Shown here: one piece after another, positions 23,132-60,014 of the stretch
Layout: each line of letters opens with the position of its first letter
Position numbering within the stretch: the first letter of the stretch is position 1
DNA from: Pseudomonas fluorescens NCIMB 11764
GTDB lineage: Bacteria; Pseudomonadota; Gammaproteobacteria; Pseudomonadales; Pseudomonadaceae
Length of the DNA: 64,000 bases
Reading direction: 5' to 3'
Assembly: GCF_000293885.2 (NCBI RefSeq)
Contig: NZ_CP010945.1
Span: 2,686,001-2,750,000, forward strand
The notes under the pieces: model-generated
What the model was told of the DNA's origin: nothing
Database searches by the model: none
The model's input: the letters and a program-made list of their open reading frames with translations, nothing else
Made by a program: the position numbers and the translations under genes

Positions 23132-23132
23132 A

Positions 23133-38742: not shown

Positions 38743-38818
38743 ACAAGCACACAGCGGTATCGACGTAAGTCGACACATGGGCAATGTAGGGATGGAAACC
38801 GAAGGCATCCCTAGAGGA

Positions 38819-38846
38819 GAAAAAGCCCCACATGAGCGAGGCTTTG
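38819..38846 (-). terminator. Terminator after the tail fibre assembly gene
   Basis: On the minus strand AGCCTC...GTGGGGCT then TTTTTC. It closes the V-W-J-I-H-assembly operon just before the F operon promoter. Confidence 0.75.
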
Positions 38847-38900
38847 AAGGGAGTTGCGTTGCGCGTAGGAGTAAAGAGTCCGGCACGCCAGTGCGGGCGT

Positions 38901-44085: not shown

Positions 44086-44132
44086 GCCGCCGATGTTGCA
44101 GGTCGCGCGTGCGAGCTGCATCGGCGGGCGGC

Positions 44133-44151
44133 TGTAGCGCGAGTGCGTACA
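44133..44151 (-). promoter_or_regulatory. Ogr-type box of the V operon
   Basis: TGT-N13-ACA, TGTAGCGCGAGTGCGTACA, with centre 57 bp upstream of the V start. Same spacing and TGTAG start as the other two late boxes. Confidence 0.7.
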
Positions 44152-44159
44152 AGCGAGAG

Positions 44160-45091: not shown

Positions 45092-45354
45092 GGTTTACCC
45101 GCCTGGGACTGCTGACACTGGTAGACCATATCGACCTGCGCAGCGCATTGCGCCCAGTCGCCCTCGGTAACGTCCTGGTCGTTGAGCAGGGCGCCGTTGT
45201 TGTCCGGTTTAGTCGCCGACAGCGTGCAAGGCACCACGGCCGGACACCCAGTCGCGATAAGCAGCGGCTCCGGTGATGGCGGGTCGTTCGCGCAACCGGC
45301 GAGCAGCGTCAGGCAGAGGCTGATCAGCCCATAAGCGAAGGTCGGCATTCTCAC
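45088..45354 (-). CDS. lysC: Rz1-like spanin lipoprotein (LysC)
   Basis: An 88-residue outer-membrane lipoprotein with lipobox LLAGC near residue 21. It begins inside the Rz-like gene in another frame and extends past its end, with 146 bp overlap, the classic embedded Rz/Rz1 layout. With the i-spanin it disrupts the outer membrane. Confidence 0.87.
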   Translation of the reverse strand: MRMPTFAYGLISLCLTLLAGCANDPPSPEPLLIATGCPAVVPCTLSATKPDNNGALLNDQDVTEGDWAQCAAQVDMVYQCQQSQAGKP

Positions 45355-45640
45355 GTTTCAAGTCCTCGATCGTTTGTTGACGGGTGGCGAGCCCTTGGCG
45401 CAATTGGTCTTGCACGCTGCGCAGCTTGATCTGGGCGGTTCGTTCTTCCTGCAGTGAGGCCTGAAGATGAATGGCGGTCGCCTCGCTACGCGTTGCCCGA
45501 TCGCGGGCGGCATCTGCTGCTTGATTAGCCAGCTCAGCATTTTTGTCAGCGACCTCGATCCGTTGGGACTGAGTCCAGACCAGAAGCGCGATCGCGGCGA
45601 GCAAGGCCACGCCATAAAGCGCCTGCCGCAGCGTGCTCAC
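45209..45640 (-). CDS. lysB: Rz-like spanin (LysB family)
   Basis: A 143-residue inner-membrane spanin: one N-terminal helix (YGVALLAAIALLVWTQSQRIE) then a long coiled coil (~residues 30-110) spanning the periplasm. It contains the Rz1 start in another frame. Confidence 0.87.
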   Translation of the reverse strand: MSTLRQALYGVALLAAIALLVWTQSQRIEVADKNAELANQAADAARDRATRSEATAIHLQASLQEERTAQIKLRSVQDQLRQGLATRQQTIEDLKRENADLRLWADQPLPDAARRLRERPAITGAAAYRDWVSGRGALHAVGD

Positions 45641-45843
45641 GCGCGGTACCAGCCGGCTGCGTTCATTGCTGCGGTATCGAGCTTGCGGACATCGCCACAG
45701 ACGACCACAGCCTTTACGCCCGGTTTCGCAACTGCGATCGCTTCGCCGAGTGCCCGAGCCAGCTCGAAGGGAGAGCCCGCTGGCAGTAGAAAGACATCGC
45801 CATCTGCGGGTGAGAGTTTGCGGATCTGATCATGGTCAATCAT
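45637..45843 (-). CDS. Small phage protein in the lysis cassette
   Basis: A 68-residue soluble protein (MIDHDQIRKLSPADGDVFLLPAGSPFELARALGEAIAVAKPGVKAVVVCGDVRKLD...). The start overlaps the endolysin stop by 4 bp and the stop overlaps lysB. Function unknown; small genes at this place occur in related Pseudomonas phages. Confidence 0.7.
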   Translation of the reverse strand: MIDHDQIRKLSPADGDVFLLPAGSPFELARALGEAIAVAKPGVKAVVVCGDVRKLDTAAMNAAGWYRA

Positions 45844-46679
45844 GCGGCCTCCGGTACAGAGCAGCCTGCAGCGTGACGCTGATAGGCGCGCTCCAGCTTG
45901 GTGTCGTACAGGTTGCGGGCGAAGTCGGGGCCGTTGTAAGCCCTGGCAAACGCCGCCCATTTTTTGCCTTTTAATGCTTTGAGCAACGCCGCCTCGGCTT
46001 CGATAAAGCGCACGAAAGCTTCGAATTGCTCGTTCTCATTGCGGGCCATCCGATCGGTAAAGTCCGTCACGCTCGCGTACCCGAGGCGCACGGCGTGATA
46101 GCCCATCACCTGGAAGGCGCCCCAGCTGGCCGACTCCAACGCGCAAACATCGTCGATCAATCGGGCGTTCGCCAGGCGCTGGTGCTCTGCCGAACCGCCG
46201 GCGTAACCACCGCTTTTGGGATTTACCAGGTTGGGCTGGACCGCCGCCAATTGATCGGCGTGGTTCTTCAATTCGGCGGGATCATCACTAGGTGCGCGCG
46301 GCGTGGCCAGCTGGCGATACATGATGTGTCGCTCGAAAAGAATCTTCGGCTTGCCATTGTCGAGGAAGCCGCTGCCTTGGCTTTCGACTTCGTTGACGGC
46401 CAAGATCGTCGCGAGCTCAACGCCGAGGCGTCCCGCAGCGTTCACCAGCAGGGCGTGCTGCAGCAGGTTCGAACAATCGGCGCCGGCCAGCGCGAGAGCG
46501 GTTTTCGAGCCCGCAATACCATCAATTACCAACCCAACCTGCCGCTGGTAATTACGCACTGCGGACTCTGTGGTGTCCCCGAAATCGCCGTCTGGCTCAA
46601 GACCGGCACCGTACAGGTTGAGCCGCTGTTGCAGTGTGCGGACATCTTGCCCGCGATCGCCGTGGCGCAGAACAGTCAT
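45840..46679 (-). CDS. Endolysin (N-acetylmuramidase with PG-binding domain)
   Basis: A 279-residue endolysin. The N-terminal peptidoglycan-binding_1 domain (~residues 8-65: GQDVRTLQQRLNLYGAGLEPDGDFGDTTESAVRNYQ) is followed by a DUF3380/N-acetylmuramidase catalytic domain (~80-270) with the catalytic Glu in ATILAVNEVESQGSGF. No signal peptide, so it needs the holin. Confidence 0.9.
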   Translation of the reverse strand: MTVLRHGDRGQDVRTLQQRLNLYGAGLEPDGDFGDTTESAVRNYQRQVGLVIDGIAGSKTALALAGADCSNLLQHALLVNAAGRLGVELATILAVNEVESQGSGFLDNGKPKILFERHIMYRQLATPRAPSDDPAELKNHADQLAAVQPNLVNPKSGGYAGGSAEHQRLANARLIDDVCALESASWGAFQVMGYHAVRLGYASVTDFTDRMARNENEQFEAFVRFIEAEAALLKALKGKKWAAFARAYNGPDFARNLYDTKLERAYQRHAAGCSVPEAA

Positions 46680-46990
46680 AGCTGATCCACCTTGCGGTTG
46701 AAGAATTGTTTGGCCAGGGCGCGCGTGCCCTCAACCCCGAGCAGTCCGATCACACCACCGAAGAACGGGCCGGTGGTCGCCGGAATGCCCAGCAGAAAAA
46801 GCCCGTGACTTGCCGAGAGTGCCAAGGCGCCGCACAACGGTGCCTCGAGCAAGACTCTGCGCCATGTGCCGCCGCCGTAGATGATCCGCAGCGCGGCGAT
46901 CACGCAGGCAAGCCCGCCCGCGTAGAAGGCAGGCCAGTTAAGTTCGAGCCAGGCAGCTAACCAGGCCCATGTATCCGGTTTGTCAGGCAT
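46676..46990 (-). CDS. Phage holin
   Basis: A 104-residue holin with about three hydrophobic segments: NWPAFYAGGLACVIAALRIIYGGG, LLEAPLCGALALSASHGLFLLG and TGPFFGGVIGLLGVEGTRALAKQF. ATG 46990 gives the usual MPDKPDTW start; a longer start at 47062 overlaps the X stop and could be used through coupling. It overlaps the endolysin by 4 bp. Confidence 0.87.
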   Translation of the reverse strand: MPDKPDTWAWLAAWLELNWPAFYAGGLACVIAALRIIYGGGTWRRVLLEAPLCGALALSASHGLFLLGIPATTGPFFGGVIGLLGVEGTRALAKQFFNRKVDQL

Positions 46991-47052
46991 GCGCGTGATT
47001 CCGCTGTCCGAGGTTGAAGGTGGTGGAGCGTCAGTGCGTGTTGTCCGGTGGA

Positions 47053-47265
47053 TCAGTCCCATAGGTTCACCATTTGCAGTTCGGGGGCCTGCGGTGCGAT
47101 ATCCGGAAGTGCCACCCGGGTGCCGTGCGGAATGATCGTGCCGAGATCAGATAGCCCCGGGTTTACCTCGAGCACGGCCTCGGTGATGCCGGCTGTGCGG
47201 CCGTAGACTCGCCAGCAGATGGCGTCGACGGTGTCGCCCTGGGCGGCATACACGGAGGTCGTCAT
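47053..47265 (-). CDS. X: Tail protein X
   Basis: A 70-residue LysM-like tail protein: VYAAQGDTVDAICWRVYGRTAGITEAVLEVNPGLSDLGTIIPHGTRVALP. Typical P2 X. It starts at the last base of the L stop codon. Confidence 0.93.
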   Translation of the reverse strand: MTTSVYAAQGDTVDAICWRVYGRTAGITEAVLEVNPGLSDLGTIIPHGTRVALPDIAPQAPELQMVNLWD

Positions 47266-47729
47266 CAGATGAGCTCCACGGTGGAATGGCCTACGCCCAA
47301 CAGATCGCGAATGGCGAAACGGGCGTCACGACGGTATTCATCGACCGAAGGTGTCAGCTCGTCTGCGTTTTTGTTGCCTTCAACGCTGGAGTCGTAACTG
47401 CGATAGCGCTCAGCGAGCTCAGCTCCAACGCCGCAGTAGATTGAACGGCGGTAAAGGTGGATGAGGTGGCTTTCGCCGTTGACTTCAAACGCCGGCACAG
47501 CCCCGATCGTGGTGTATCCGTTCGCGACATGGCCCGACTTCACCGCAGCCAGTTCGCTGTTCACCTGGATTAACGCGTTGACGGTCACGACTTCAATGCG
47601 CGCATCAGTGATGCTGCCATCCAGGCGAATGGATGTGCGCAGGTGCACGACATCAATGTCAGGCCAGAACCCGTCATTTGTGATTACGTAGGGTTCGTCA
47701 GTGCTGCCGGTGGCAATAAATCCGCTCAT
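47265..47729 (-). CDS. L: Head completion protein L
   Basis: A 154-residue head completion/stabilisation protein: TNDGFWPDIDVVHLRTSIRLDGSITDARIEVVTVNALIQVNSEL, then HLYRRSIYCGVGAELAERYRSYDSS, as in P2 L. It follows M after about 100 bp. Confidence 0.92.
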   Translation of the reverse strand: MSGFIATGSTDEPYVITNDGFWPDIDVVHLRTSIRLDGSITDARIEVVTVNALIQVNSELAAVKSGHVANGYTTIGAVPAFEVNGESHLIHLYRRSIYCGVGAELAERYRSYDSSVEGNKNADELTPSVDEYRRDARFAIRDLLGVGHSTVELI

Positions 47730-47829
47730 GGTTCAGCCCTAAGTCGGCGGTGGCCGGGGCGTCACAGCGAGGAAAGGGGATAAACCTGCTGTTCGGCCCC
47801 GGGCCGCCGGGGTTGCGGGGTACGCTCGG

Positions 47830-48534
47830 TCAGCTCCCTGGTGGGGGAGCAATCTTTTTCTGAAGGCGCTCAGCACCTTCCAGGTCCTTCTTGCCGCCAC
47901 AGCTATTATCGAGCTCGATGGCGCGTTTTAGCAGTTCGATAGCGGCCATTACCTGACCGGGTTGGCCCGGGTTATCAGCCGTCAGCCCTGCTACTGTGGC
48001 GCGTCCTGTAGCCAGGTACAGCTTGGCCTTGACTTGGTCCGGCATGTCCTGGTTAGCGGTCAGCTCCATAGTCCTGTGCAAAATAGCCAGATCGAACCCG
48101 CCGCTGGCTTTTTGGGAGATCAGTGCGCATTCGGCAATTTCCTCGGCAATCAGGCAGCCGGTGGTCCGCTCGAAGCGATCGGGCATCAGCAGGTTGTGCT
48201 GCAACACATACGCTGCGATGTCGAGCGCACCGGAATAATCGGATGCATCCACGCGCCAGATCATGATGGTGGTGAGTACTTCGTCTTGAGCACCGTTCCC
48301 CGCCGCCAGAACACCATCGACGTAAGGCACGTAGGCCGGCAGGAGCTGCAACTTAAGCGCGGCTTTGCCTTCGTTCGACTGGATTTGCTTCAGGCGCAGA
48401 CGATCTTGCAGCAGCTGGGCCAGCTGCATTTCGTAGGCCGTCCCGCCCGCCATGGAGACGGCGGGCGAAGCGGCGGCCGCCTCTTGAGAGGCAAGCGCTT
48501 TCATCCGGTGACGCTGGGCGAGCGAGAGAGCCAT
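47830..48534 (-). CDS. M: Terminase small subunit M
   Basis: A 234-residue gpM-type terminase endonuclease subunit (QRHRMKALASQEAAAASP...; VPYVDGVLAAGNGAQDEVLTTIMIWRVDASDYSGALDIAAYVL). It recognises cos with the large subunit P. Lies directly after N. Confidence 0.92.
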   Translation of the reverse strand: MALSLAQRHRMKALASQEAAAASPAVSMAGGTAYEMQLAQLLQDRLRLKQIQSNEGKAALKLQLLPAYVPYVDGVLAAGNGAQDEVLTTIMIWRVDASDYSGALDIAAYVLQHNLLMPDRFERTTGCLIAEEIAECALISQKASGGFDLAILHRTMELTANQDMPDQVKAKLYLATGRATVAGLTADNPGQPGQVMAAIELLKRAIELDNSCGGKKDLEGAERLQKKIAPPPGS

Positions 48535-48536
48535 GG

Positions 48537-49541
48537 TTATGCGGCCTCTTCGATGTTTTCGACCAGGGCGCCGAGACCGAAGTCTTCGATCACGTAGTCT
48601 TCGTTCGACGACTGGTAGTCGGCGACACGATCGCGCTCCGGCTCGTCTTTGGTCATGCGACGACGGCTGCTGATCTGGAAATAGATCGACAGGTTTTTCA
48701 GCGTGGTGATCATGATGCCGCCGTCAATGAAGAACGGTGCATCCTCGATCGGTAGGCCGCCCAGCGTGCCGTTGGCGATGATGCGTGCGGCAGCCAGCTC
48801 GTTCTCGTTATCGGCCGCACCTTCGATGTTGGCCAGGAACTTCGCGTGCAACAAATTGCGGTCGACCAGGACGACCAAATCGGGACGTTTGCGATGCCAT
48901 GGGTCCAGCAGCTGGATCGCGTCGTAGACCAGACCGTCCAAGGTCTTGTAGTCGCCGGTCGGGCCGATGGTGACTTTGCCGGCAACCTTGCCGCTGCTCA
49001 ACACACGCTCTGGTGCCTTGGTGCGGTACTTCTCAAGCCAGCCCACGTTTACGTCTTCCAGCAACGGATGGGCGGTCCGATCGGTGGTCTCAGCAGCACT
49101 GGTGCCGTTGAAGCCGATCATGATGCGATCGAGCGCCTGGCGCTCAACGATTGCTCCCGACAAGCGAGCCTGAAAGTCCGGGAATTTTGCCCATGCATCC
49201 AGCAGTGCGTAAGGAATCGCGGTGTCGAAGTCGGTTTTTTTGCAGCTGTAGGTGTCGTTCTTCAGCGAGCTCACACCGCGAGGGTTGCGGGCGGTCTGAT
49301 TGGTGTTGGTACGGCCCGCAATGGTCGAGCCAACGCCCAGAACAATGGCCTCGCCGTCTTTTTCGTCGACGCCCAGCACGTTGATTTTTTTCAGGAATGC
49401 GCTGGATTCCTGAATAGCCGTTTCCAGCTTCTGCTGGACAGAAGGGGTGACGGTGAATTTCTCCGCCACCGACCCGACGGCGTTGATCGATGCAACCTGT
49501 TTGGTGAAGCCGTTGAAGGCAAGCCGTGTTTCGTTACGCAT
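48537..49541 (-). CDS. N: Major capsid protein N
   Basis: A 334-residue P2-family capsid protein (MRNETRLAFNGFTKQVASINAV... FTVTPSVQQKLETAIQESSAFLKKINV). The C-terminus NYVIEDFG-like segment (YQSSNEDYVIEDFGLGALVENI) is standard. It is cleaved and assembled on the O scaffold. Confidence 0.95.
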   Translation of the reverse strand: MRNETRLAFNGFTKQVASINAVGSVAEKFTVTPSVQQKLETAIQESSAFLKKINVLGVDEKDGEAIVLGVGSTIAGRTNTNQTARNPRGVSSLKNDTYSCKKTDFDTAIPYALLDAWAKFPDFQARLSGAIVERQALDRIMIGFNGTSAAETTDRTAHPLLEDVNVGWLEKYRTKAPERVLSSGKVAGKVTIGPTGDYKTLDGLVYDAIQLLDPWHRKRPDLVVLVDRNLLHAKFLANIEGAADNENELAAARIIANGTLGGLPIEDAPFFIDGGIMITTLKNLSIYFQISSRRRMTKDEPERDRVADYQSSNEDYVIEDFGLGALVENIEEAA

Positions 49542-49579
49542 GGTGTTCTCCTGTGGAGCTCGTTAGGGGGCCGACGTGA

Positions 49580-50422
49580 TCAGTAGGCGGTCAGCACAGC
49601 GCCGTCGCCGCCAGGCATTGCTGGGCGTTTGGTCTGGCTGTGGTCCTGGGTTTCGCCCAGGCGCTTGATCAAGTCCGCGAAATCGGTGGTCAGCTTTTCA
49701 TGTTTGCCGGAGAGGGCTTTCAGCGCTTCATCGGCTGACGCGACGACTTTGGCCTGATCGGCGGCGTGGCCGGCCAGCGCCTCGACGGCGTCGTTCAATT
49801 CGGAGAACTGAGCGTCGTCCTTGTTGGCTTTGGCCTTGCTGCGGCCGAGCAAATCGGAAACGCGGGAGAACAGGCCGTCGATCACGCTCGGGGTTTCGAC
49901 GACTTCGTCAAACTCCAGCTGCGCTTCGACGAGCTCCGAGAACAAGTTGTCCGGTTTGCTCTTGCGCGCCTTCAGCGGTGAGGCGTCGGGGTTTTGCGCG
50001 CTGAATGTGAGCATCTCGGTGCCCAGGCTCGCCGGCGAATCGGTGACAGCTAACCCATCAAGGTAAGCGCGGCCGGTGTCGGCAAACTTCGGCGAGATCT
50101 CGATGCTGGTGTACAGCTTCTGGCGCGCCTTGTTCATGGCGATCAGGTCGTCGGTCGGCTCGATCTGAACGAACAGGGCCAGCTTCTTCGTGCCGTTGAC
50201 GTCGACTTCTTCAGTCTTCGCCGCCAACACATCGCCGTAAGCACGGAACGGGCTGTCCGGCAGGACGCTGCGGTAGTGCTCCACCCAGACACGAGCGCCG
50301 TAGGTGTTCGGGTTATAAGTCTCGGCTGCATCGACCAGCCATTGGCGCTCGATCTGACGACCATCAGTGGTCGCACCTTCTACGGCGACGCGGAACCATT
50401 TGGAGCGAAACTTTTTCTTCAT
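49580..50422 (-). CDS. O: Capsid scaffolding protease O
   Basis: A 280-residue scaffold and serine protease. N-terminal protease domain with His in VWVEHYRS and Ser in QKLYTSIEISPKF; Asp is probably in the WLVDAAETYNP region. The C-terminus (~residues 190-270) is coiled-coil scaffold. ATG 50422 starts the family sequence. First gene of the O operon, divergent from P. Confidence 0.92.
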   Translation of the reverse strand: MKKKFRSKWFRVAVEGATTDGRQIERQWLVDAAETYNPNTYGARVWVEHYRSVLPDSPFRAYGDVLAAKTEEVDVNGTKKLALFVQIEPTDDLIAMNKARQKLYTSIEISPKFADTGRAYLDGLAVTDSPASLGTEMLTFSAQNPDASPLKARKSKPDNLFSELVEAQLEFDEVVETPSVIDGLFSRVSDLLGRSKAKANKDDAQFSELNDAVEALAGHAADQAKVVASADEALKALSGKHEKLTTDFADLIKRLGETQDHSQTKRPAMPGGDGAVLTAY

Positions 50423-50511
50423 GGGGCGGATCCTCAAAGCTGTGCTGCTGGGTGCAGTTGCGTTGAGGTACATCCTCGGCAGTCGCGCGATCGCGAGCAA
50501 TCAACGCCAGT

Positions 50512-50530
50512 TGTAGGCCCACGCGCTACA
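50512..50530. promoter_or_regulatory. Ogr-type box between O and P
   Basis: TGTAGGCCCACGCGCTACA, TGT-N13-ACA, with a perfect TGTAG/CTACA dyad. The centre is 58 bp upstream of P (plus) and 99 bp upstream of O (minus), so it may serve one or both operons. Confidence 0.72.
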
Positions 50531-50578
50531 TGGCACATCACTACGCCTTCACGCGCGCGAGGCGTCAGCATCGCCGCC

Positions 50579-52339
50579 ATGACTACAACCGACGCCACTC
50601 CCATCCGCGATAACCGCCGTCAGGCCAAGTTCCTCTACTGGACTGGCCTGCGGATCTGCGCGATCGCAGAAATGCTGGGTGAAAAGGAAAAGACCGTTCA
50701 TGCGTGGAAAACGCGTGATGAATGGGATCGGGCCGATAACGTCGAGCGCATAGGCGGCGCCCTGGAAGCGCGACTGGTGCAACTGATCCTGAAGGACGGC
50801 AAGAGCGGTGGTGACTTCAAGGAAATCGACCTGCTGCACCGTCAATTGGAGCGGCAAGCAAGGATCGAACGGTACAAGGCCGGCGGTACCGACGCTGACC
50901 TCAACCCCAACCTGGCCAAACGCAACGAGGGACCGAAGAAGAAAGCGGCTCGCAATGAGTTCAGCGAAGAGCAGATCGAGCAACTGACCGAAGCGTTTAA
51001 AGAGGGGTGCTTTGGCTATCAGTTGGACTGGTATCGGGCGAGCAATCAGCGCACCAGGGCGATCCTGAAAAGCCGGCAGATCGGCGCCACTTACTACTTT
51101 GCCCGGGAAGCGTTTATCGACGCCCTGGTCACCGGGCGCAATCAGATATTCCTATCCGCATCGAAGAACCAGGCGCACATCTTCAAGGCCTACATTCAAG
51201 GCTTCGCCCGCGAGGTTTGCGGTGTGGAGCTCACCGGTGACCCGATCATTCTGGCGAACGGCGCCGAGCTGCATTTCCTCGGTACTAACGCCCGAACCGC
51301 TCAGGGTTACCACGGTAATTTCTACTTCGACGAATTCTTCTGGACGTTCAAGTTCAACGAGCTGAACAAGGTCGCCAGCGGCATGGCGATGCAGAAGCAA
51401 TACCGCCGCACCTACTTCTCGACACCATCGAGCATGGCGCATGAGGCCTACACGTTTTGGACCGGCGAGCGCTTCAACAAGGGCAAGCCGGTGGCCCAGC
51501 GGTTGAAACTCGACGTTTCGCACGATGCGCTGCAGCAAGGCCGTTTGTGCGAGGACCGGATCTGGCGCCAGATCGTCACCATCCTGGATGCCGAGCAGCG
51601 GGGATGCGATCTATTTGACCTGGAAGAACTGCGCCTCGAGTACAACGCGGACGCCTTCGCGAACCTGCTCATGTGCCAGTTCGTCGACGACGGGGCGAGC
51701 ATCTTTCCTCTCAATGTCCTGCAGCCCTGCATGGTCGACAGCTGGGTCGAGTGGTCCGAGGACTACAAACCTTTCGCTGCGCGTCCGTTTGCCGATCGGC
51801 AGGTGTGGATCGGCTACGACCCAGCGGAAACAGGCGACAGTTCTGGCTTGGTGGTCGTGGCACCGCCTTTGGTACCGGGTGGGAAATTCCGCGTGCTCGA
51901 GCGCCATCAGTTCCGAGGGATGGACTTCGCCGCGCAGGCCGAGGCGATTCGCCAGGTCACGATGCGCTACTGGGTGACGTATATCGGGATCGATATCACA
52001 GGCATGGGCTCTGGCGTGGCCCAGCTGGTGCGCCAATTCTTCCCCAATGTAACGACCTTCAGCTATTCCCCCGAGGTCAAAACGCGCCTGGTGCTGAAGG
52101 CCTACGACGTGATCCACAAAGGGCGCCTGGAGTTCGACGCCGGCTGGATCGACATGGCCCAGTCGCTGATGGCGATTCGCAAGACCATCACGGCCAGCGG
52201 CCGGCAGTTCACCTACACGGCAGGTCGCACCGACGAGACCGGACACGCGGATCTCGCCTGGGCGCTTTTCCACGCATTACAGAACGAACCGCTTGAGGGC
52301 CAAACCTCAACGAATACCGGCTTCATGGAGATTTACTGA
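50579..52339 (+). CDS. P: Terminase large subunit P
   Basis: A 586-residue terminase ATPase/nuclease. N-terminal HTH (FLYWTGLRICAIAEMLGEKEKTVHAWKTRDEWD), then the ATPase with a Walker-A-like ILKSRQIGATYYFAREA, Walker B FYFDEFFWT, and the nuclease region with GYDPAETGDSSGLVVV (Asp) and IGIDITGMGSGVAQLV. ATG 50579 is chosen. It forms an operon with Q (TGATG overlap). Confidence 0.95.
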   Translation: MTTTDATPIRDNRRQAKFLYWTGLRICAIAEMLGEKEKTVHAWKTRDEWDRADNVERIGGALEARLVQLILKDGKSGGDFKEIDLLHRQLERQARIERYKAGGTDADLNPNLAKRNEGPKKKAARNEFSEEQIEQLTEAFKEGCFGYQLDWYRASNQRTRAILKSRQIGATYYFAREAFIDALVTGRNQIFLSASKNQAHIFKAYIQGFAREVCGVELTGDPIILANGAELHFLGTNARTAQGYHGNFYFDEFFWTFKFNELNKVASGMAMQKQYRRTYFSTPSSMAHEAYTFWTGERFNKGKPVAQRLKLDVSHDALQQGRLCEDRIWRQIVTILDAEQRGCDLFDLEELRLEYNADAFANLLMCQFVDDGASIFPLNVLQPCMVDSWVEWSEDYKPFAARPFADRQVWIGYDPAETGDSSGLVVVAPPLVPGGKFRVLERHQFRGMDFAAQAEAIRQVTMRYWVTYIGIDITGMGSGVAQLVRQFFPNVTTFSYSPEVKTRLVLKAYDVIHKGRLEFDAGWIDMAQSLMAIRKTITASGRQFTYTAGRTDETGHADLAWALFHALQNEPLEGQTSTNTGFMEIY

Positions 52340-53379
52340 TGAGCAACAGCCGCAGCGAAACCACGCAATCGTCCACTTCAGCCCCGGCCGAGGGACAGGT
52401 GCTACCGGCAACGGGCGGCAAAATGGAGGCCTTCACCTTCGGTGACCCCACGCCAGTCCTTGATGAGCGGGGGATTCTCGACTACCTGGAGTGCTGGCTG
52501 AACGGCCGGTGGTATGAACCGCCGATGTCCCTTGATGGGCTGGCCAAATCCTCCCGGGCCAGTGTGTTCCTGCAATCTGGCTTGAATTTCAAACGCAATA
52601 TGCTTGCCCGCACCTTCATTCCCCACAAGCTGTTGTCCCGTCAGACCTTCGAGCAATTCGCCCTGGACTTCCTGTGGTGCGGCAATGGCTATCTGGAAAA
52701 GCGGGAAAACATGCTGCGCAGCACGTTGGGCCTGCAGCCGGCGCTGGGTAAGTACATGCGGCGAGGCGGTGACCTCGAAACCTATTACCAGGTGCGCGGA
52801 TGGCGCGACGAGTACGAGTTCAAGCGTGGGACGGTTTACCACCAGCGCGAGGCGGACATTAACCAGGAAATCTATGGCCTGCCGGAATGGCTCCCGGCGC
52901 TGCAAAGCGCGCTGCTGAACGAGTCCGCCACCTTGTTTCGGCGCAAGTACTACAACAACGGCAGTCACGCCGGTTTCATCATGTACATGACCGACACCGC
53001 GCAGAACGAGACCGACGTTGCCGCGTTGCGCAGCGCGCTGAAGTCCGCCAAAGGACCAGGAAATTTCCGGAACCTGTTCATGTACGCCCCGGGCGGAAAG
53101 AAGGATGGGATTCAGTTAATCCCCGTCAGTGAGGTCGCGGCGAAAGACGAATTCGGCTCGATCAAGAACATCAGCCGCGACGACATGCTCGCGGCGCTAC
53201 GCATCCCACCTCAGTTGATGGGCATCGTGCCGCAAAACGCAGGCGGTTTCGGCTCGATCAAAGAGGCCGCGCAGATCTGGGCAATGAACGAGCTCGAGCC
53301 GATCCAGGCACGCCTGCAGCAGGTCAACGAATGGCTGGGCGAAGAGGTTGTTCGTTTCCGGCCGCTTGAACCGAGTTAA
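52339..53379 (+). CDS. Q: Portal protein Q
   Basis: A 346-residue P2-family portal. Signature parts: VLDERGILDYLECWLNGRWYEPPMSLDGLAKSSRASVFLQSGLNFKRNML, NGYLEKRENMLR, and SKNISRDDML-like SIKNISRDDMLAALRIPPQLMGI. It forms the DNA entry ring. The stop is followed 42 bp later by the convergent methyltransferase gene. Confidence 0.95.
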   Translation: MSNSRSETTQSSTSAPAEGQVLPATGGKMEAFTFGDPTPVLDERGILDYLECWLNGRWYEPPMSLDGLAKSSRASVFLQSGLNFKRNMLARTFIPHKLLSRQTFEQFALDFLWCGNGYLEKRENMLRSTLGLQPALGKYMRRGGDLETYYQVRGWRDEYEFKRGTVYHQREADINQEIYGLPEWLPALQSALLNESATLFRRKYYNNGSHAGFIMYMTDTAQNETDVAALRSALKSAKGPGNFRNLFMYAPGGKKDGIQLIPVSEVAAKDEFGSIKNISRDDMLAALRIPPQLMGIVPQNAGGFGSIKEAAQIWAMNELEPIQARLQQVNEWLGEEVVRFRPLEPS

Positions 53380-53420
53380 ATTAAACCGCTTGCTATCGAG
53401 GCGCGAGCTAACTCTGAGGA

Positions 53421-54590
53421 TTACATGCGGAAGCAGACGATGCTTTCTTGGCAAGCTAATCGGGCACTTCGAGTTTTAGCATTACCGCCCAACGTGCTGA
53501 AGTCTGAATCCACTTCAAACTGTTCTATCGAGGAAAATAGTTTTCTACCGGCGTCGATGAAGTCTGTAGCTGACAGTCCGTTGCTTGCGCTATACGAAGG
53601 GAAGGTTAGTACTAATCCTACTTTTTTCCTGTAGCAAGTTTCGATCAGGTCGAGTGCAGCGAATCTCGATTTTGCTCGTAAGCTAAACATAGAGCTCGGT
53701 CGCTCAGCGATGTCTGGATATCGACCCCTTCCGGTAACTTCCACTTCTGCACCTTTCGCCAAAGTTTCGAGCACATGGTAAAAACGGCTGTAGTGAACAT
53801 CCGAGTAAGGTGGATCAGCAAAGACTAGATCACCTTCTTGCAACAGTTCGATTGTATTGACAAAGTCTCCCGCAGCCGCGTGACCAATGGCGTGAGCGTG
53901 CTTAGTGGATATGCTCTCAATCGATTCTATAAGTAATTTTTCGACTGATCGTTGCCAAGCTTCCAACACGTATTTCGCGGAGGTGATAGTAGGTTGGAAC
54001 GGCTGGGCGGTATGCCCTGGCGAAGCTGCGCAGCGGCTCGCAGTTTCGATCAGGGCGGCCAAAGCAATTGATCGATCCGGTTCAGTCTTGGGCAGCGTCG
54101 ACCTCAGTGCATCCAAAAGCAATGCCTGCATTGGCGAAAAATAGTGGCCGCCGTACGCCTTTGTCATTGGAAACGGGCGTCGCAAATTTTTCAGAAGCCC
54201 TGGCAGAACCTGCTCGCAGAACGATCTTGATCGAACAATTAGCTTAATGATGTCTTCAGTCCGCGATACATCCGGTTCAATAGAGCGTTCGGCGTTCGGA
54301 AATTTTTCAATGATAGTTGACAGAGCTCGCTTCGCCCGTTTTAGCCAAGGTCCGTGAATGGACGAAGCATTTACCGGCGCTGTGCGTGTGGTAACTGAAG
54401 CCGCTCTACATATCGCAAATTCTTGCAGGTCACCGGAAATAACAGATTTTTTGGTGTTTTGCGCTAAAAACCAAGAAACTGCTCCTGATCCGCAAAACGG
54501 ATCTCCGATAGAAGCTGAGTTTTTTGACTCCTCAATCAAAATGTCGCCTAGGAAATTCAGGAGTTTTCCTTTGTGACCCATATATTTCAT
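53421..54590 (-). CDS. D12-class DNA adenine methyltransferase
   Basis: A 389-residue DNA N6-adenine methyltransferase. Motif I is IGDPFCGSGAVSWFL (~residues 28-42), motif IV DPPY at 259-262 (FADPPYSDVHYSRFYHVL), and the N-terminal MKYMGHKGKLLNFL resembles the Dam/D12 entry motif. About 80 residues longer than Dam. AT-richer than phage genes. Start ATG overlaps the previous stop as TGATG. Last gene of a three-gene cassette with no linked restriction nuclease in sight; it may protect self DNA. Confidence 0.85.
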   Translation of the reverse strand: MKYMGHKGKLLNFLGDILIEESKNSASIGDPFCGSGAVSWFLAQNTKKSVISGDLQEFAICRAASVTTRTAPVNASSIHGPWLKRAKRALSTIIEKFPNAERSIEPDVSRTEDIIKLIVRSRSFCEQVLPGLLKNLRRPFPMTKAYGGHYFSPMQALLLDALRSTLPKTEPDRSIALAALIETASRCAASPGHTAQPFQPTITSAKYVLEAWQRSVEKLLIESIESISTKHAHAIGHAAAGDFVNTIELLQEGDLVFADPPYSDVHYSRFYHVLETLAKGAEVEVTGRGRYPDIAERPSSMFSLRAKSRFAALDLIETCYRKKVGLVLTFPSYSASNGLSATDFIDAGRKLFSSIEQFEVDSDFSTLGGNAKTRSARLACQESIVCFRM

Positions 54591-55852
54591 CAGATAACGT
54601 TCCAGACCATGCACGCATCGGGCCGAGTGAGCCTAATCGTATTGCTGAGTGTTGGCGCCTGCCATAATGCTGAAGGACTAACAGGCGTTAAATAAAACTG
54701 ATCTATCGCTTCGCTGTAATCGACGGATAGATCATACGGATCGATGTCGTCAGTGCGCGCCCACAATCCTGCGTGCTCAAACCAATTAGATAACCATTCC
54801 GAAGCTGGTTTATTGGCGTTGAGGCTGATACTGGATTTAGTAGCCAGCATGGCAAGTCTCAAAAGAAAAAACGCTCGACACATTACATTTTTTGGTTGCG
54901 TGTCTTTGGCAGATGCTAATTCAAATGGAAGGGTGTCGTATTTTGTAGTGTCCAAGCGGCGGGCAATATGTTCTGGGTCGAGGCCTGTATTAGTGCTAAT
55001 TTCCAGGGAGATTATCTCCATTGCTTCTGCAATGGATGTTAAGCCCGCAGCTGGCTTCAATGCATCTATTTGGGAAAGCATCCCAGGGAGGGCTTGCTTT
55101 ACAAAATACGAGATCAGTGAACCATCAAATACCAAGCCCGCTTCTTCCGGGAGGAGGAGCTTCCAAAGGGATAAGACGAGGTCTAAATCCTCTGGTTTCA
55201 TTTTCGACAGAGGAGCTTTCATCCAAAAAGCTTCGTAACTGGAAATATTACGCGCCAATCGGTCGTCTTTGATTTTCGCTAGATCTAAACCCCATCCTTT
55301 TAGTGTCTGAGTAGGTCGTATATATTGAAGTGCGGTTAATACTTGTGAGAGAGATACGCCCGTGGTTAGTCTGATGTTGTCACTGAATAAGGCCTGAGCG
55401 TCGCTTCTGGTTACCCAGTTCTGCCACAAGCCCCAAACTGCGGTGTGAGTAGGAGACTGTGGTACGGGAGTTTTGACTCCTTTATCAGTCATGTAATAGT
55501 TGCTGTTCTGCTTTACTCGTATACCGCTCCAGCTTAAAAGCGATAACGCCGCTCTGAGTTCGGCGTAGTAAGCAAAGTGTAGAGCCGTATGTTGCGAGTT
55601 GTTGAGAAAGGCTGTAGTCGCGGCTGACGCGTATCTCCAGCCTTCGATCATGTGAAAGACCTGCTCTGCAGCAAGCTCTGTCGGACCAACCAACTTCCCC
55701 GGCGGACACAGTAAATCTTCAAAAGCGTTTATCGGGCCGAGTTTATTGAAAGCTTGCTGTACCGTAACCCCGCTTGCATTTTTACATATTGCGGCATAGT
55801 CGACAGTGGGCTTCGGTTTAGCAGGTCTTTTCTTCGAGTGGAGAGGCGGCAT
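54590..55852 (-). CDS. Unknown 420-residue cassette protein
   Basis: I recognise no family. The protein is soluble and mostly helical, with a basic Pro/Lys-rich N-terminus (PPLHSKKRPAKPKP). A region from ~70 to 110 (HMIEGWRYASAATTAFLNNSQHTALHFAYYAELRAALSLLSW) looks like a helical bundle. Its start overlaps the upstream DGQHR gene end by one base and its stop overlaps the methyltransferase start by one base, so the three are translated as a unit. Base composition is AT-rich. It is the best candidate for the effector of the cassette, but this is inference. Confidence 0.75.
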   Translation of the reverse strand: MPPLHSKKRPAKPKPTVDYAAICKNASGVTVQQAFNKLGPINAFEDLLCPPGKLVGPTELAAEQVFHMIEGWRYASAATTAFLNNSQHTALHFAYYAELRAALSLLSWSGIRVKQNSNYYMTDKGVKTPVPQSPTHTAVWGLWQNWVTRSDAQALFSDNIRLTTGVSLSQVLTALQYIRPTQTLKGWGLDLAKIKDDRLARNISSYEAFWMKAPLSKMKPEDLDLVLSLWKLLLPEEAGLVFDGSLISYFVKQALPGMLSQIDALKPAAGLTSIAEAMEIISLEISTNTGLDPEHIARRLDTTKYDTLPFELASAKDTQPKNVMCRAFFLLRLAMLATKSSISLNANKPASEWLSNWFEHAGLWARTDDIDPYDLSVDYSEAIDQFYLTPVSPSALWQAPTLSNTIRLTRPDACMVWNVI

Positions 55853-57414
55853 TATGCATTACCTTGTAAATACATGGCCTGCTGCGCTTTCTCCGAAATT
55901 AATTTTATGTCTGATTCCGCCAGCTTTTTGAAACATTCACGTTGAAGCAATGAGTAGCCGCTACTGCCTCTATAAGCAGCTTGCATTTGGCTCTGTTGCG
56001 GCGTCAGGCTTTTAGCGCCACTTGTACGCCAATCCATTCCGCTATTAACTAAAGTTTCGCATATTTCTTTAATGTATTTGTTGGGTTTTGGGAATTCAGA
56101 AAACTGATCAAGTGCAACCGATACATCTATGTCGCTTGGTTTGTCAGAGACTTCATCGGAATCCCATTTTTCCAACTCAAGCTCTTCATAGGCCAGCTGG
56201 CTCATAGCGTTGAACACAATGAACATCACGCGACATCCTTGGTCAGTCGAGATCAATGTGTTCGCGCCGGAAAATGCTGCGTTTTTTTCGAATTCACTTT
56301 GCTCAAGAAGTTGTTCGTTTCGCGATCTTTCATCGCGAAGCGCTACGACCCAAGGTGCCGTTGACTTTTTTACTGCGAGGTGCAGATGCGTCCAGCACGA
56401 AATCAAAAAAGCCGCTTGCTGGGAACGTTTCCAAGGAAGAACCTTTTCCACGCCGTTCCCGTCAATTGACCCAAACAATCCACCGATCTTATTATCTTTA
56501 CCCCAGCGCCTTACAAAGCTTGCTGTAAGAGATCGTATAAATGCGGCGTTAGAAACATGACCTTCTTTTCTCCCGCCATGCAATTCGATCCGATCTTTCC
56601 ATGGGCTGCGATCATGTCGCCAAAGGACTTCTGTTAACTCTTGAGCTCGGTGCTCTTGGTAAACTTTTACGCCTTCGCCGCTCTCTAGCCATGATTGGCT
56701 TCTGAGTTCAGGGTATAAGTCAAAAGCTAAGCTGGTATTGATTTTGCGTGGTTCAACGTTGATAACCCAAAACAAATAGGCTTGCCATGACTCGGTTAGT
56801 CCATTGAAGAAGACAACTGGTACTTCATAGTTGTCGTCATATATATCTTTTCCCAGTTCATCAACGGCAAAAAGCCTATGTTGTCCGTCGATGATTTCAA
56901 TAGGCTCCAGATTGGTTTCTTGATTTTTCTGTCGCGACGACTCAACAGTGTCAGGTATATCAAGAACGTGAAAAGAACCTTCAGTCGTTATCTTAAGAGC
57001 CTGTGACTCTTGCAAGGTTGTATCTTTTCCCGCGCGACGCCTTACCTCTCCCGGTTGGATAATATTTACTAGGATTGATGTTGGCAGCCAGCCCGGATGA
57101 ACGAGTTGCCGGTGTTCATCAGGGTCAAGATTATTCTGGTTAGAGAGTGGATAACCATACTGGATGTAGCGAGCAATGTTTTTAGATCGACTTAGCTGGT
57201 GGGCACGCTGATAGCCCGCATGCTTTTCGCTTGCTTTCCGGTTTTCTAGCGTCCGTCGGCTAACCCCTGCAAGAGCTCGCAGCACTCGCAGGGGCACGGA
57301 TGCAATATAAAATTCATGCGGAGGCTCAGGAAGATCTGGAGCCCAATCGCTCAATTCCCAAGACTTCAGCCACTGGTTGACTTTGAGGAGCGGAATTTTC
57401 TTGGCATTTGACAT
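55852..57414 (-). CDS. DGQHR-domain protein (DndB/DpdB-like superfamily)
   Basis: A 520-residue protein with the motif IIDGQHRLFAVDEL (DGQHR at 176-180), as in ParB/Srx-fold proteins of the DndB and DpdB groups that act with DNA modification. Further family features are ILVNIIQPGE (~115-124) and FWVINVEPRKINTSLAFDLYP (~217-237). The C-terminal 250 residues are unassigned. First gene of the AT-rich cassette, which ends next to portal gene Q. It probably binds or modifies DNA or a nucleotide; the exact role is unknown. Confidence 0.82.
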   Translation of the reverse strand: MSNAKKIPLLKVNQWLKSWELSDWAPDLPEPPHEFYIASVPLRVLRALAGVSRRTLENRKASEKHAGYQRAHQLSRSKNIARYIQYGYPLSNQNNLDPDEHRQLVHPGWLPTSILVNIIQPGEVRRRAGKDTTLQESQALKITTEGSFHVLDIPDTVESSRQKNQETNLEPIEIIDGQHRLFAVDELGKDIYDDNYEVPVVFFNGLTESWQAYLFWVINVEPRKINTSLAFDLYPELRSQSWLESGEGVKVYQEHRAQELTEVLWRHDRSPWKDRIELHGGRKEGHVSNAAFIRSLTASFVRRWGKDNKIGGLFGSIDGNGVEKVLPWKRSQQAAFLISCWTHLHLAVKKSTAPWVVALRDERSRNEQLLEQSEFEKNAAFSGANTLISTDQGCRVMFIVFNAMSQLAYEELELEKWDSDEVSDKPSDIDVSVALDQFSEFPKPNKYIKEICETLVNSGMDWRTSGAKSLTPQQSQMQAAYRGSSGYSLLQRECFKKLAESDIKLISEKAQQAMYLQGNA

Positions 57415-57538
57415 GATAGTCCCTTATGGCCAGCCATTTAATTTATGAGCCGCACAACGGCGTTCAGCGCCAGGCGTAGCGCGTGATTCTATCAGCTCGG
57501 CAGAAGTAAACACTGGGGTTTCTTTCATTTTGCCGTAG

Positions 57539-57572
57539 ACCCTTACCACGCGATTACCAGCGAGGTAAGGGT
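57539..57572. terminator. Hairpin after the antirepressor gene
   Basis: ACCCTTACC...GGTAAGGGT, a 9-bp stem, 9 bp beyond the antirepressor stop on the minus strand. It separates the antirepressor operon from the DGQHR cassette, though the T run on that strand is poor. Confidence 0.55.
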
Positions 57573-57580
57573 TTCATTCG

Positions 57581-58414
57581 CTACGACGCTTGGATCTGGG
57601 CCGGCTTCTTGAACACCCAGCATTTGGTCGTGGTTTTGCGAATGATGCTGTCCACCGCCTTTTGCCCCAAGAACTCTGGCTCGGTGCAGCGCTTCAATGC
57701 GGTGGTGACGTCGGTACCAATGACGGTCTGGATGCCATTGGCAGCGAACAGTTCGACCAGGTGCGGCATGTTCAACGCGATCAGTTGCGAGTCCTTGGAG
57801 TGGTTGTAGGCGACGCCCTTGGTGTCCAGCTGCAGGAGCGCACCCCAGAAGTCTGCGACCACGTCCGCTTGGGGCGGCTCGACGGTGCCGAGGGCGTCCA
57901 GATCAGGGACGGGCAGGCCCATGGCGTTGGAGAGGTTTGTGATCTCGACGCCAAGCAAATCCCGCATCGACCGATTGCGGCTGCGCATCAGCTCCTTCAG
58001 CAATACCAGACGATGTTTCGACAGGCTGATTTGCTGGGCGATGGTGACAGCACCAGGTCGAACGGCCGCGCCCTTGGTCCAGTAGTTCCACAGCACCTCG
58101 TCGCACTCTTCCTGGTACTGGATGATCTTGTCACGCAGTTCGGGCGCCACCTTGTTCGGACTGATCGAGTAGAGCCAGGCGACCAGCTTGCGCAGAGGAA
58201 GGCAGGTCATCCCGTATTGCTTGCCGTCGGCACCAGTTGTGTCGATTTCCGACACAACTGAATCGAAGCGTTCCACGATCTTGATACGTTGAGCGGACCA
58301 TCCAAGCCCCATGTTTTCTACGATCGGCCTCATAGCCACGTACGGCTCGTTGTCTTTGCCGACCAGGACAATGGTGTCACCGTAAAACGGAACGGGCATA
58401 AGTTGGGTGTTCAT
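57581..58414 (-). CDS. Phage antirepressor (P22_AR_N domain)
   Basis: A 277-residue protein. The N-terminal P22 antirepressor domain (~residues 5-115) has MPVPFYGDTIVLVGKDNEPYVAMRPIVENMGLGWSAQRIKI and LPLRKLVAWLYSISPNKVAPELRDKIIQYQEECDEVLWNYW. The C-terminal ~100 residues (VAYNHSKDSQLIALNMPHLVELF...KAVDSIIRKTTTKCWVF) match the C-terminus of the primase at 26666. It likely inactivates a repressor. Third gene of an operon behind the structured leader. Confidence 0.88.
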   Translation of the reverse strand: MNTQLMPVPFYGDTIVLVGKDNEPYVAMRPIVENMGLGWSAQRIKIVERFDSVVSEIDTTGADGKQYGMTCLPLRKLVAWLYSISPNKVAPELRDKIIQYQEECDEVLWNYWTKGAAVRPGAVTIAQQISLSKHRLVLLKELMRSRNRSMRDLLGVEITNLSNAMGLPVPDLDALGTVEPPQADVVADFWGALLQLDTKGVAYNHSKDSQLIALNMPHLVELFAANGIQTVIGTDVTTALKRCTEPEFLGQKAVDSIIRKTTTKCWVFKKPAQIQAS

Positions 58415-58434
58415 GATGTGAGTCCTTTCAGTAG

Positions 58435-58641
58435 TTAGATGCGGGATGGGGTGCTGAGGGCTGAGCGAATGACGCTATCCAGGTCAGTGCAGATCTTGTC
58501 CAGGAAGCCGGCCAGCATCTGCGGCTGATACAACCCGGGATGATCAGCCTGCTGGGCGAGCGCATGCACCAGGGCAAGTGAATCCCGCACCCGTTCCAAA
58601 TCAAACAGATCGGCATGAGTGAGACCGTAGGACTTTCTCAT
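58435..58641 (-). CDS. DUF3077-like small phage protein
   Basis: A 68-residue helical protein (MRKSYGLTHADLFDLERVRD...; YQPQMLAGFLDKICTDLDSVI). The two-helix layout resembles DUF3077 and the chromosomal gene at 20771, which also lies behind a copy of the leader. Start overlaps the previous stop (ATGA). Function unknown. Confidence 0.65.
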   Translation of the reverse strand: MRKSYGLTHADLFDLERVRDSLALVHALAQQADHPGLYQPQMLAGFLDKICTDLDSVIRSALSTPSRI

Positions 58642-58796
58642 AGGGCACCGCCGTGCGTTTCCAGAACGCGCACCTGGTGCATGTGGTGGTTGTAGCGCTT
58701 CAGTCGGCTGGAGAGGGAGGAATCAGCGTGCAGTGCAGCGAGAGCCATGCGGCGATGGGCAAGTGCGCGGATTTTGGACGGAATGAGAGCGGTCAT
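58638..58796 (-). CDS. Small basic phage protein behind the leader
   Basis: A 52-residue basic protein (MTALIPSKIRALAHRRMALA...; SSRLKRYNHHMHQVRVLETHGG). It is the first gene of the leader-controlled operon. The ribosome site AAGGAG (58804-58809 region) is 7 bp upstream and lies within a hairpin that competes with leader stem P1. No family recognised. Confidence 0.7.
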   Translation of the reverse strand: MTALIPSKIRALAHRRMALAALHADSSLSSRLKRYNHHMHQVRVLETHGGAL

Positions 58797-58801
58797 CGTG
58801 T

Positions 58802-58927
58802 AGCTCCTTGAATTTAGGAGCTGCCACCGATCGCGACCAAGCAATTGGGGTGGCAGCTGTACGCAGGTTGGTCGACCGGGGATCAAGGAACCCGGCAGGG
58901 CCGAAGCCCTCCCACGCACAGCCGCCA
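58802..58927 (-). ncRNA. Structured 5' leader, copy A (prophage), with SD hairpin
   Basis: Contains the 112-nt element (58816-58927) shared with 21063-21174. On the plus strand: P1 AGCTGCCACC/GGTGGCAGCT; pseudoknot CGACCAA/TTGGTCG; P2 CCGGG/CCCGG; P3 AGGGC/GCCCT; invariant CCCACGCACAGCC. Next to it AGCTCCT (58802-58808) pairs with AGGAGCT (58816-58822), hiding the Shine-Dalgarno of the next gene. That hairpin and P1 share AGCT at 58819-58822, so they cannot form together. This is a switch-like layout. Confidence 0.72.
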
Positions 58928-58946
58928 TAACATGAAGTTGCGGACA

Positions 58947-58980
58947 CAAAAAAAGCGCCTGCAATCGTTACGGGGCGCTG
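58947..58980 (-). terminator. Hairpin with T run upstream of the leader
   Basis: On the minus strand AGCGCC...GGCGCT followed by TTTTTTT. It would stop leftward transcription coming from the cos side before the leader, or act as part of a longer leader. Confidence 0.6.
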
Positions 58981-59334
58981 TTGCGCCTTGATTTATCCCG
59001 GCGACCAAACCGGATCGCTGAATTGGCAGCGACGCCCACAATCTACTGACGAACCGAATACCGGTCAATCATTTGTTTACAGGTATTCGTGCTGGCACAA
59101 CGAAGATGCATCGCCGGGCGGACGAAAATAACCCAGTCCAACATATCATTTAGTCCTTGTCCCGTCCATCGATCAAAGCCCTGTGGGCCAGTAAACACGG
59201 GGCTTTGACGTCGCGAAAGAGTGATGCGATCGGCCAGCGGTGCCGTCACGACGAGTCCCGGGAAGGTTAGGTCGGCACGCACCCTTTTGGGGCGCGACCG
59301 GTCGGGCAGGGTGGGTCTTCACCTGGCGCGCGCC

Positions 59335-59353
59335 GTCGTCCCCCCGCCACGCC
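59335..59353 (-). other. Putative cos site
   Basis: On the minus strand GGCGTGGCGGGGGGACGAC, very close to the P2 cohesive end GGCGAGGCGGGGAAAGCAC from memory. It lies in gene-free sequence on the far side of Q and the cargo, as expected for a cos-packaged P2-like phage with P/M terminase. Confidence 0.7.
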
Positions 59354-59520
59354 TGCGGGCTAAATCGGTCTTAATTTCTACACACCTGCAACCCACCAGC
59401 GACAGCGCCCGATGGGCCTCTCCTGCGCGAATAGGGGGCTGATAAAAACCTACAGATCCCTGCACGCATACCCTCTTTTTGAGGTGTCGGAGAGCGCTTC
59501 TCCAGAGGTCTTTTTTCAGG

Positions 59521-59824
59521 TGACCCAAGGGAAACAAGTAATTTAGGTATGTGGTGGTTAGAAAGCAGTTACAGCCCGCACGCGATGCGGTTTTGAGCAC
59601 TTACTTGGTACTGGCTTTTTGGAGTAAGAAGGGGAGTAATTTTTTAATAACTATATGATTTATATAGATATTTTATTTTCGTTTTCTGACCATGATGAAA
59701 GGTAATGTTATTTCTAGATATTACTTAAAACTTACCTAATCAAATCGTCTACAAGCCTTGTGTTCTTTGGCTTTCAGAAGGGGGGAGGAAAAACTTACCA
59801 AAAATACCTGTTTCCCGTGGGTCA
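59521..59824. repeat. 32-bp imperfect inverted repeat, ~240 bp apart
   Basis: The left copy (59521-59552) and the reverse complement of the right copy (59793-59824) match at 27 of 32 positions, including GTTTCCC(T/G)TGGGTCA. The spacer is AT-rich. Role unknown. Confidence 0.7.
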
Positions 59825-59899
59825 ACATAAAAACGGGACTGGCTATAGAGGGAGGGCGGCGGCAGGTTCTCGCTCATGCAACAGCTCGCTTACACGCAA

Positions 59900-59920
59900 A
59901 CTGTCACCGGAACTGTCACC
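59900..59920. promoter_or_regulatory. Integrase arm-type sites, right
   Basis: Two ACTGTCACC repeats (59900-59908 and 59912-59920), matching the pair at 23110-23131. They lie 48 bp from the attR core. Confidence 0.65.
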
Positions 59921-59967
59921 AAACACGCTAAGGCTCAAACTGACACGTCTGGAGCCCTTGAAAATAG

Positions 59968-60014
59968 TGGAGCGGGTGAAGGGAATCGAACCCTCGTTAT
60001 CAGCTTGGGAAGCT
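59968..60014. repeat. attR core (47 bp)
   Basis: The 3' 47 bp of tRNA-Gly(CCC), identical to attL. Integration restored the 3' end of the gene at this side. Confidence 0.95.

Follow-up and report, generated by a model that had tools for sequence, protein, structure and literature searches.

A possible defence cassette encoding a DGQHR protein, a HEPN-like protein and a DNA adenine methyltransferase in a prophage of Pseudomonas fluorescens NCIMB 11764

Results

Genes and proteins of the cassette

The window analysed in this study is a stretch of 64,000 nucleotides from Pseudomonas fluorescens NCIMB 11764 (contig NZ_CP010945.1, positions 2,686,001 to 2,750,000 of the forward strand). It contains a prophage with a cassette of three minus-strand genes that may form a defence system. 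The first gene (55852..57414) encodes a DGQHR protein of 520 amino acids, the second (54590..55852) a protein of 420 amino acids, here called the middle protein, and the third (53421..54590) a D12-class DNA adenine methyltransferase of 389 amino acids counted from an ATG codon. With ATG starts, both gene junctions are one-base overlaps; an alternative in-frame GTG start at 54614 would extend the methyltransferase to 397 amino acids and lengthen its overlap with the middle gene. The G+C content of the cassette genes was 46.1-48.2%, compared with 59.8% for phage gene Q, 59.6% for gene P and 57.8% for the window. A first-pass annotation of the region had described three overlapping minus-strand genes that are richer in A+T than the surrounding phage, with a DGQHR motif in the first product, no known domain in the second and a DPPY methyltransferase motif in the third, and the present analysis agreed with it on all of these points. 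Scans for promoters and terminators gave numbers of sites not above those of shuffled controls.

The DGQHR protein matched TIGR03187 (1.6e-24, 87.1 bits, cut-off 58.85) and the Pfam family DndB (PF14072; 8.1e-9, 35.4 bits, cut-off 29.1). With DndB of the Dnd systems and DpdB of the Dpd systems it thus shares the DGQHR motif and a ParB-related family, but the scores for the families specific to these systems were far below the cut-offs, with 58.4 bits against 450 for the Dnd-associated DGQHR protein (TIGR04172) and 32.0 bits against 300 for DpdB (NF041060), and no dnd or dpd modification genes occurred among the neighbours examined in the window. Membership in the Dnd or Dpd systems, to which the first-pass annotation had assigned DGQHR proteins in general, was rejected on these cut-offs. 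Residues 30-222 or so are predicted to adopt a ParB/Srx fold, with the DGQHR motif at residues 176-180. The structural search gave a weak match to SspE, and one weak row was obtained when solved structures were searched by sequence. SspE and GmrSD differ from the DGQHR protein in having an HNH-type nuclease domain of their own. The likeness lies in the ParB-fold nucleoside triphosphatase (NTPase) domain carrying a DGQ(Q/H)R-type motif that the available text of PMC4619093 describes for both. The DGQHR protein is predicted to be an NTPase sensor or switch.

The methyltransferase matched PF02086 above the cut-off (1.5e-12, 48.2 bits, cut-off 22), which places it in the D12 class. Its DPPY motif at residues 259-262 was invariant among 34 aligned relatives, and the solved structure found by sequence was Dam.

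Conservation of the gene order

Among 7,998 scored candidates, 72 relatives of the middle protein were found at E<=0.01. Species genomes were scanned with an alignment of relatives and with one peptide pattern, YYAELRAA, for which 80 matches were listed; at least 52 genome loci were obtained in this way. The 52 genome loci among the matches listed, two plasmid records and one viral contig make up the 55 loci considered below. The viral contig (L001), the only locus found in IMG/VR, encodes a middle protein 100% identical to that of the window; it is counted among the 55, and because it is a near-copy it is not independent. The middle protein had no match in 50,697 phage records. A plasmid search gave five records, none with matches to more than 35% of the query length, and the two examined, Rhizobium tumorigenes pRt932 and Zymomonas mobilis pZZM405, had the same gene order.

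A DGQHR gene lay upstream on the same strand in all 53 of the 55 loci in which the contig allowed this to be seen; the other two (L023 and L046) begin at the contig start. The gap between the DGQHR gene and the middle gene was at most 20 nt in 51 of 52 loci, with locus L018 left out. Thus the same three-gene order, whose absence elsewhere would have spoken against the first-pass interpretation, was found in distant genomes and on plasmids, and the arrangement in the window is more than chance.

Some copies were irregular. L018 (4213-9958) is an interrupted copy, with a fragmented DGQHR gene that unrelated sequence of 2.2 kb separates from the middle gene. In another genome (G584; loci L131 and L136) the DGQHR protein is encoded by two adjoining open reading frames (ORFs) with a four-base overlap beside an intact middle gene, which is either a natural split or a frameshift. 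On the Rhizobium plasmid a 503-amino-acid protein with no Pfam or NCBIfam match is encoded directly after the cassette (L002, 8295-9806) and could be a fourth component or unrelated cargo. On pZZM405 a gene pair for a DUF4433 protein and a macro-domain protein, which we take to be DarTG-like, lies close to the cassette copy (L003, 9857-11580).

A quick tree of the DGQHR proteins with 52 rows, from which L001, L018 and the two loci without a DGQHR gene were left out, took in at least ten named phyla of bacteria and a single archaeon, a methanogen; many loci are metagenome assemblies, so that single organism names may be wrong. Represented were Pseudomonadota, Bacteroidota, Chloroflexota, Actinomycetota, Armatimonadota, Planctomycetota, Verrucomicrobiota, Campylobacterota, Cyanobacteriota and Ignavibacteriota as well as several candidate phyla. 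The cassette is rare: the window's own genome was the only one of 298 genomes of the genus with the middle protein. In 398 genomes of the phylum, near-full-length members of the DGQHR clade and the middle protein occurred in the same two genomes, one of them G584 with its two DGQHR ORFs, and four more genomes had partial, weak DGQHR matches only.

Exchange of the methyltransferase

An adjacent DNA methyltransferase was present in 49 of the 55 loci and was of one of three kinds, assigned in part by motif. Directly after the middle gene there were 35 D12 methyltransferases of the window type and 10 Dam-like D12 enzymes, and four loci had a beta-class methyltransferase directly before the DGQHR gene (confirmed by PF01555 in L030 and L054, by motif only in L042 and L045). 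No methyltransferase was seen in the remaining six; in three of these (L023, L027 and L052) the contig breaks off upstream, and in L036, L037 and L051 both flanks are visible. On the DGQHR tree the methyltransferase type changed at least three times when rows without a methyltransferase were left out and seven times with them.

Pairwise identities were compared across the 33 loci with a window-type methyltransferase. The correlation was 0.85 between DGQHR and middle proteins, 0.41 between DGQHR proteins and methyltransferases, and 0.42 between middle proteins and methyltransferases. Since pairwise values are not independent, permutation and bootstrap were used. All three correlations exceeded those of 300 Mantel permutations, and the difference between the DGQHR-middle and the DGQHR-methyltransferase correlation was above zero in 300 of 300 bootstrap draws. 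When the clade of the window was removed, leaving 26 loci, the correlations were 0.76, 0.40 and 0.37, in the same order. From these values the DGQHR protein and the middle protein evolve together as a unit, whose methyltransferase partner is exchanged more freely.

Two of the loci without a methyltransferase, in Pseudanabaena (L036) and in the archaeon Methanoregula (L051), had a DndD-like ABC ATPase nearby (TIGR03185, under the cut-off) and dnd_assoc_4 (TIGR04062, above the cut-off in L036 only) near the pair; L051 also had dnd_restrict_1 (TIGR04095, 7e-138, under the cut-off). With matches to PbeA and PbeC, these neighbours are Pbe-type machinery. The DGQHR-HEPN pair thus adjoins genes of the PbeABCD (CxC/DndD) type in these genomes, whereas the window has a D12 methyltransferase in their place.

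Fold and candidate site of the middle protein

No family matched the middle protein at E<=1 in Pfam, NCBIfam or PHROGs, no PADLOC model (PADLOC-DB 2.0.0) did so at E<=10, and no solved structure was found by sequence at E<=5. An origin from phage structural or metabolic proteins, which would have spoken against the first-pass interpretation, was rejected on the lack of any PHROG at E<=1; BFVD was uninformative. The best match of a confident AlphaFold2 model was the HEPN protein AF0298, and the predicted structure has the helical HEPN fold. The middle protein therefore looks like a member of the HEPN superfamily, and it is predicted to be a ribonuclease (RNase)-like effector.

The candidate site consists of H136, R201, N202, Y206 and E98. 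In place of the Rx4-6H motif the protein has R201-N202-x-x-S-Y206, so that the arginine and its polar neighbour are kept and tyrosine replaces the HEPN histidine in 110 of 110 alignment rows. H136 was likewise present in 110 of 110 rows, and R201 was also invariant. H136 lies at the start of the helix formed by residues 135-146, which an insert separates from helix 87-108. H136 thus corresponds to the alternative conserved histidine that AF0298- and AbiV-like proteins have in their helix 2-3 insert. AF0298 and AbiV are HEPN superfamily members that likewise lack the Rx4-6H histidine, according to the accessible part of PMC3710099. A search for AbiV was above the cut-off in one of 299 genomes. 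The 110-row alignment leaves out L018, L036 and L042. Invariance within YYAELRAA, including E98 and R100, is built in for the 49 rows from loci and also holds for the other 61 rows; H136, R201, N202 and Y206 lie outside the search pattern.

The carrier prophage and its cargo site

The prophage (22936..60014) lies between two 47-bp direct repeats that resemble att sites, the right copy being in a tRNA-Gly gene (59968-60041). The repeat copies at 22936 and 59968 enclose 37.1 kb, an integrase gene adjoins the left copy, and primase, tail, sheath, baseplate, endolysin, capsid, terminase and portal families occur in between. The closest phage records by Q were Pseudomonas phages with about 74% identity, including Dobby (Citexvirus, 37,152 bp). 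On this evidence the prophage looks complete and phiCTX-like, phiCTX being the name used for this phage group. Adjoining the integrase, a minus-strand gene (24404-25681) encodes a 425-amino-acid protein whose sole match was phrog_26663 (function unknown, 5e-26); it is possibly a second cargo.

The portal gene Q (52339..53379, plus strand; phrog_68, 5.3e-152) converges with the cassette, and by PHROGs the terminase large subunit is the other plus-strand gene upstream. On the far side an antirepressor-like gene (P22_AR_N; 57581..58414, minus strand) adjoins the cassette as phage context outside the system. It is followed by a conserved element of about 70 bp (59320..59390) that is probably cos, judged by its position and conservation.

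The Q query was matched in 44 of 199 genomes of the genus, the window's own included. Twenty stretches downstream of Q, one from each of 20 matching genomes, were compared. The cos-like element was found in 19 of the 20 (not in L093), 246 bp to about 5.3 kb past the Q match, and the ORFs between Q and the element differed among the stretches. None of these ORFs matched a cassette protein at E<=1e-5, so the cassette was present in 0 of 20. In the related prophage L088 the shared sequence ends at 53374 and restarts at 57588, and the segment in between (53375..57587) is exchanged for other genes; the cassette therefore occupies a replaceable segment. Other cargo followed Q in L087, L097, L102 and L106; in several related prophages the start of a plus-strand ORF there resembles that of a Dam-like methyltransferase, judged by its letters only, and in others the genes are of different kinds.

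The earlier placement of the cassette in a P2-like cargo region by Q and cos was right as to a variable cargo site of a phiCTX/P2-like prophage and was corrected in its wording, the site lying between Q and the cos-like element with the antirepressor-like gene between cassette and element. In Escherichia coli P2-like phages a cos-adjacent hotspot between gpA and gpQ holds tin and old (PMC9122126, available part). Variable cargo next to cos and Q, with many anti-phage systems, is the common feature; the present carrier differs in being a phiCTX-like phage of another genus, and the cassette is not mentioned in the available part of that paper.

Discussion

The cassette is read here, tentatively and at somewhat less than even confidence, as a three-gene phage-borne defence system that resembles restriction-modification, with an effector that would attack RNA and a methyltransferase that would mark self. 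The D12 methyltransferase would mark host and prophage DNA. The DGQHR protein, a predicted NTPase with a ParB/Srx fold, would act as one unit together with the HEPN-like middle protein, which it would keep silent in the normal cell by reading how the DNA is methylated or whether the methyltransferase is intact. Unmethylated incoming DNA or disturbed methylation would be sensed and release the HEPN protein, which might then cut cellular RNA, phage RNA or both, and the infection would be stopped by dormancy or death. The overall logic would be that of PrrC with a different sensor, the DGQHR protein. In a more detailed form, which is possible but held with less confidence, the methylation state read by the DGQHR NTPase would directly license or release a HEPN RNase whose His136/Arg201 site is non-canonical, and evolution would have plugged this pair into two types of D12 enzyme, beta-class enzymes or Pbe/Dnd-type machinery. 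The cassette behaves as the mobile unit that had been proposed for it, with three genes that travel together, a replaceable segment in the prophage and, in some genomes, known defence genes nearby. Action of the DGQHR or middle protein on foreign DNA, as first worded, found no support; as the middle protein is probably HEPN-like, RNA would be the likelier target.

Several observations weigh against this interpretation. The Foldseek match to HEPN had a probability of 0.85 with an E value of 1.1, was ranked under many unrelated rows and is weak when taken alone, and helical bundles reach middling Z scores by chance. In hhalign the score of the middle protein with HEPN_MAE_28990 (PF18737) was no better than a reversed control. 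No histidine was present at R+4 to R+8 in 106 of 110 rows, so that the canonical HEPN histidine is missing, and the helix-2 acidic motif has the form E98-x-R100 instead of Ex3[KR]; for these two reasons the middle protein may be a non-catalytic HEPN protein. Three loci with both sides in view had no methyltransferase, and location in prophage cargo is no proof of defence. In a scan of 133 neighbouring proteins (144 of >=150 and <1200 amino acids, from which the 12 methyltransferases adjacent to the pair were subtracted and to which one protein was added manually), restriction-modification, Abi and Pbe families were among the matches listed, but these counts had no control and comprised the best 25 families per list, and no enrichment is therefore claimed.

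The main rival is a system in which the DGQHR ParB/Srx protein itself nicks or cuts unmethylated foreign DNA, similar in outline to GmrS, Osa and SspE, with the middle protein as a non-catalytic HEPN-fold adaptor and the methyltransferase protecting self. Such a system appears rather unlikely. The methyltransferase was swapped more freely than the other two genes, which is awkward for a deoxyribonuclease (DNase) that is strictly sequence-matched and makes one less likely. In addition, no nuclease domain was matched in the DGQHR protein by the profile libraries, though coverage of its C-terminal part was slight, and H136 and R201 of the middle protein are invariant.

It is improbable that the cassette serves counter-defence or regulation, with a methyltransferase that hides phage DNA from the restriction enzymes of the host or adjusts gene expression and with DGQHR and middle proteins that regulate methylation. 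In some of the 20 related prophages the site does hold a lone ORF that looks like a methyltransferase (L087 is an example, judged by the first letters of the ORF), and a regulatory role in the dnd operon has been reported for DndB (PMC12704722 and PMC10853773, available parts). However, the constant part of the cassette is the DGQHR-HEPN pair and not the methyltransferase, and the pair exists without one beside Pbe/Dnd-type genes. An addiction module of the toxin-antitoxin kind, in which a HEPN toxin and an antitoxin (the methyltransferase or the DGQHR protein) would keep the prophage in its host with no antiviral role, is likewise improbable given a long, three-part locus with adjoining defence genes in some genomes, even though HEPN proteins are common as toxins (PMC3710099, accessible part) and copies sit on plasmids and a prophage.

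The tentatively favoured reading, defence by an RNA-directed effector under methylation control, has precedents. The closest are the operons of HEPN_MAE_28990. Among 299 genomes of the phylum, 8 had a match to its family (PF18737) above the cut-off, and a GmrSD_N (DUF262) gene stood directly before the HEPN gene in all eight (5.2e-26 or better; L122-L129), which makes this a recurring two-gene module. A DNA methylase was identified by Pfam before the pair in two of the eight (L125 and L126); the other six were inspected by motif only. Table 1 of Anantharaman et al. 2013 (PMC3710099) lists MAE_28990 HEPN genes in an operon with a ParB nuclease and a DNA methylase. Both combinations have a ParB-fold gene directly before a HEPN gene and a DNA methylase by some pairs. 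They differ in that the ParB branch is GmrSD_N/DUF262 instead of DGQHR and that MAE_28990 is another, shorter HEPN family which keeps Rx4-6H, according to the accessible part of PMC3710099. Kinship of the two HEPN proteins by profile was rejected on the lack of a Pfam match and the hhalign result given above. That the same order recurs in two combinations that look unrelated favours a shared mechanism.

A second precedent is PrrC, whose partner is the EcoprrI restriction-modification system. PrrC and RloC offer the same logic, a HEPN RNase tied to a DNA-modification system (PMC3710099, accessible part), but they have no DGQHR protein and belong to a different HEPN family, and the coupling in the cassette is a conjecture. 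The systems of HEPN, DUF499 ATPase, methyltransferase and helicase (Hma and Type-1 BR) likewise combine a HEPN RNase with an N6 methyltransferase, as far as the available text of PMC12839542 goes, whereas the cassette is without DUF499 ATPase or helicase. Because the PrrC and MAE_28990 precedents exist, the cassette is rated as a variant of the modification-coupled HEPN systems, a kind already known. No description of it was found in the open-access literature searched; subscription papers and preprints were outside that scope, and a description may exist there.

If the interpretation is true, the cassette would be a mobile defence system that PADLOC-DB 2.0.0 does not cover and that occurs in at least ten named phyla of bacteria and in one archaeon. 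DGQHR proteins, on whose role opinions differ even for the Dnd systems, would gain a constant partner and a testable job, and the exchangeable methyltransferase would offer a test case for the conversion of DNA methylation state into RNA cleavage. The parallel of GmrSD_N and HEPN in eight of eight genomes suggests that the pairing of a ParB-fold protein with a HEPN protein may be a general design.

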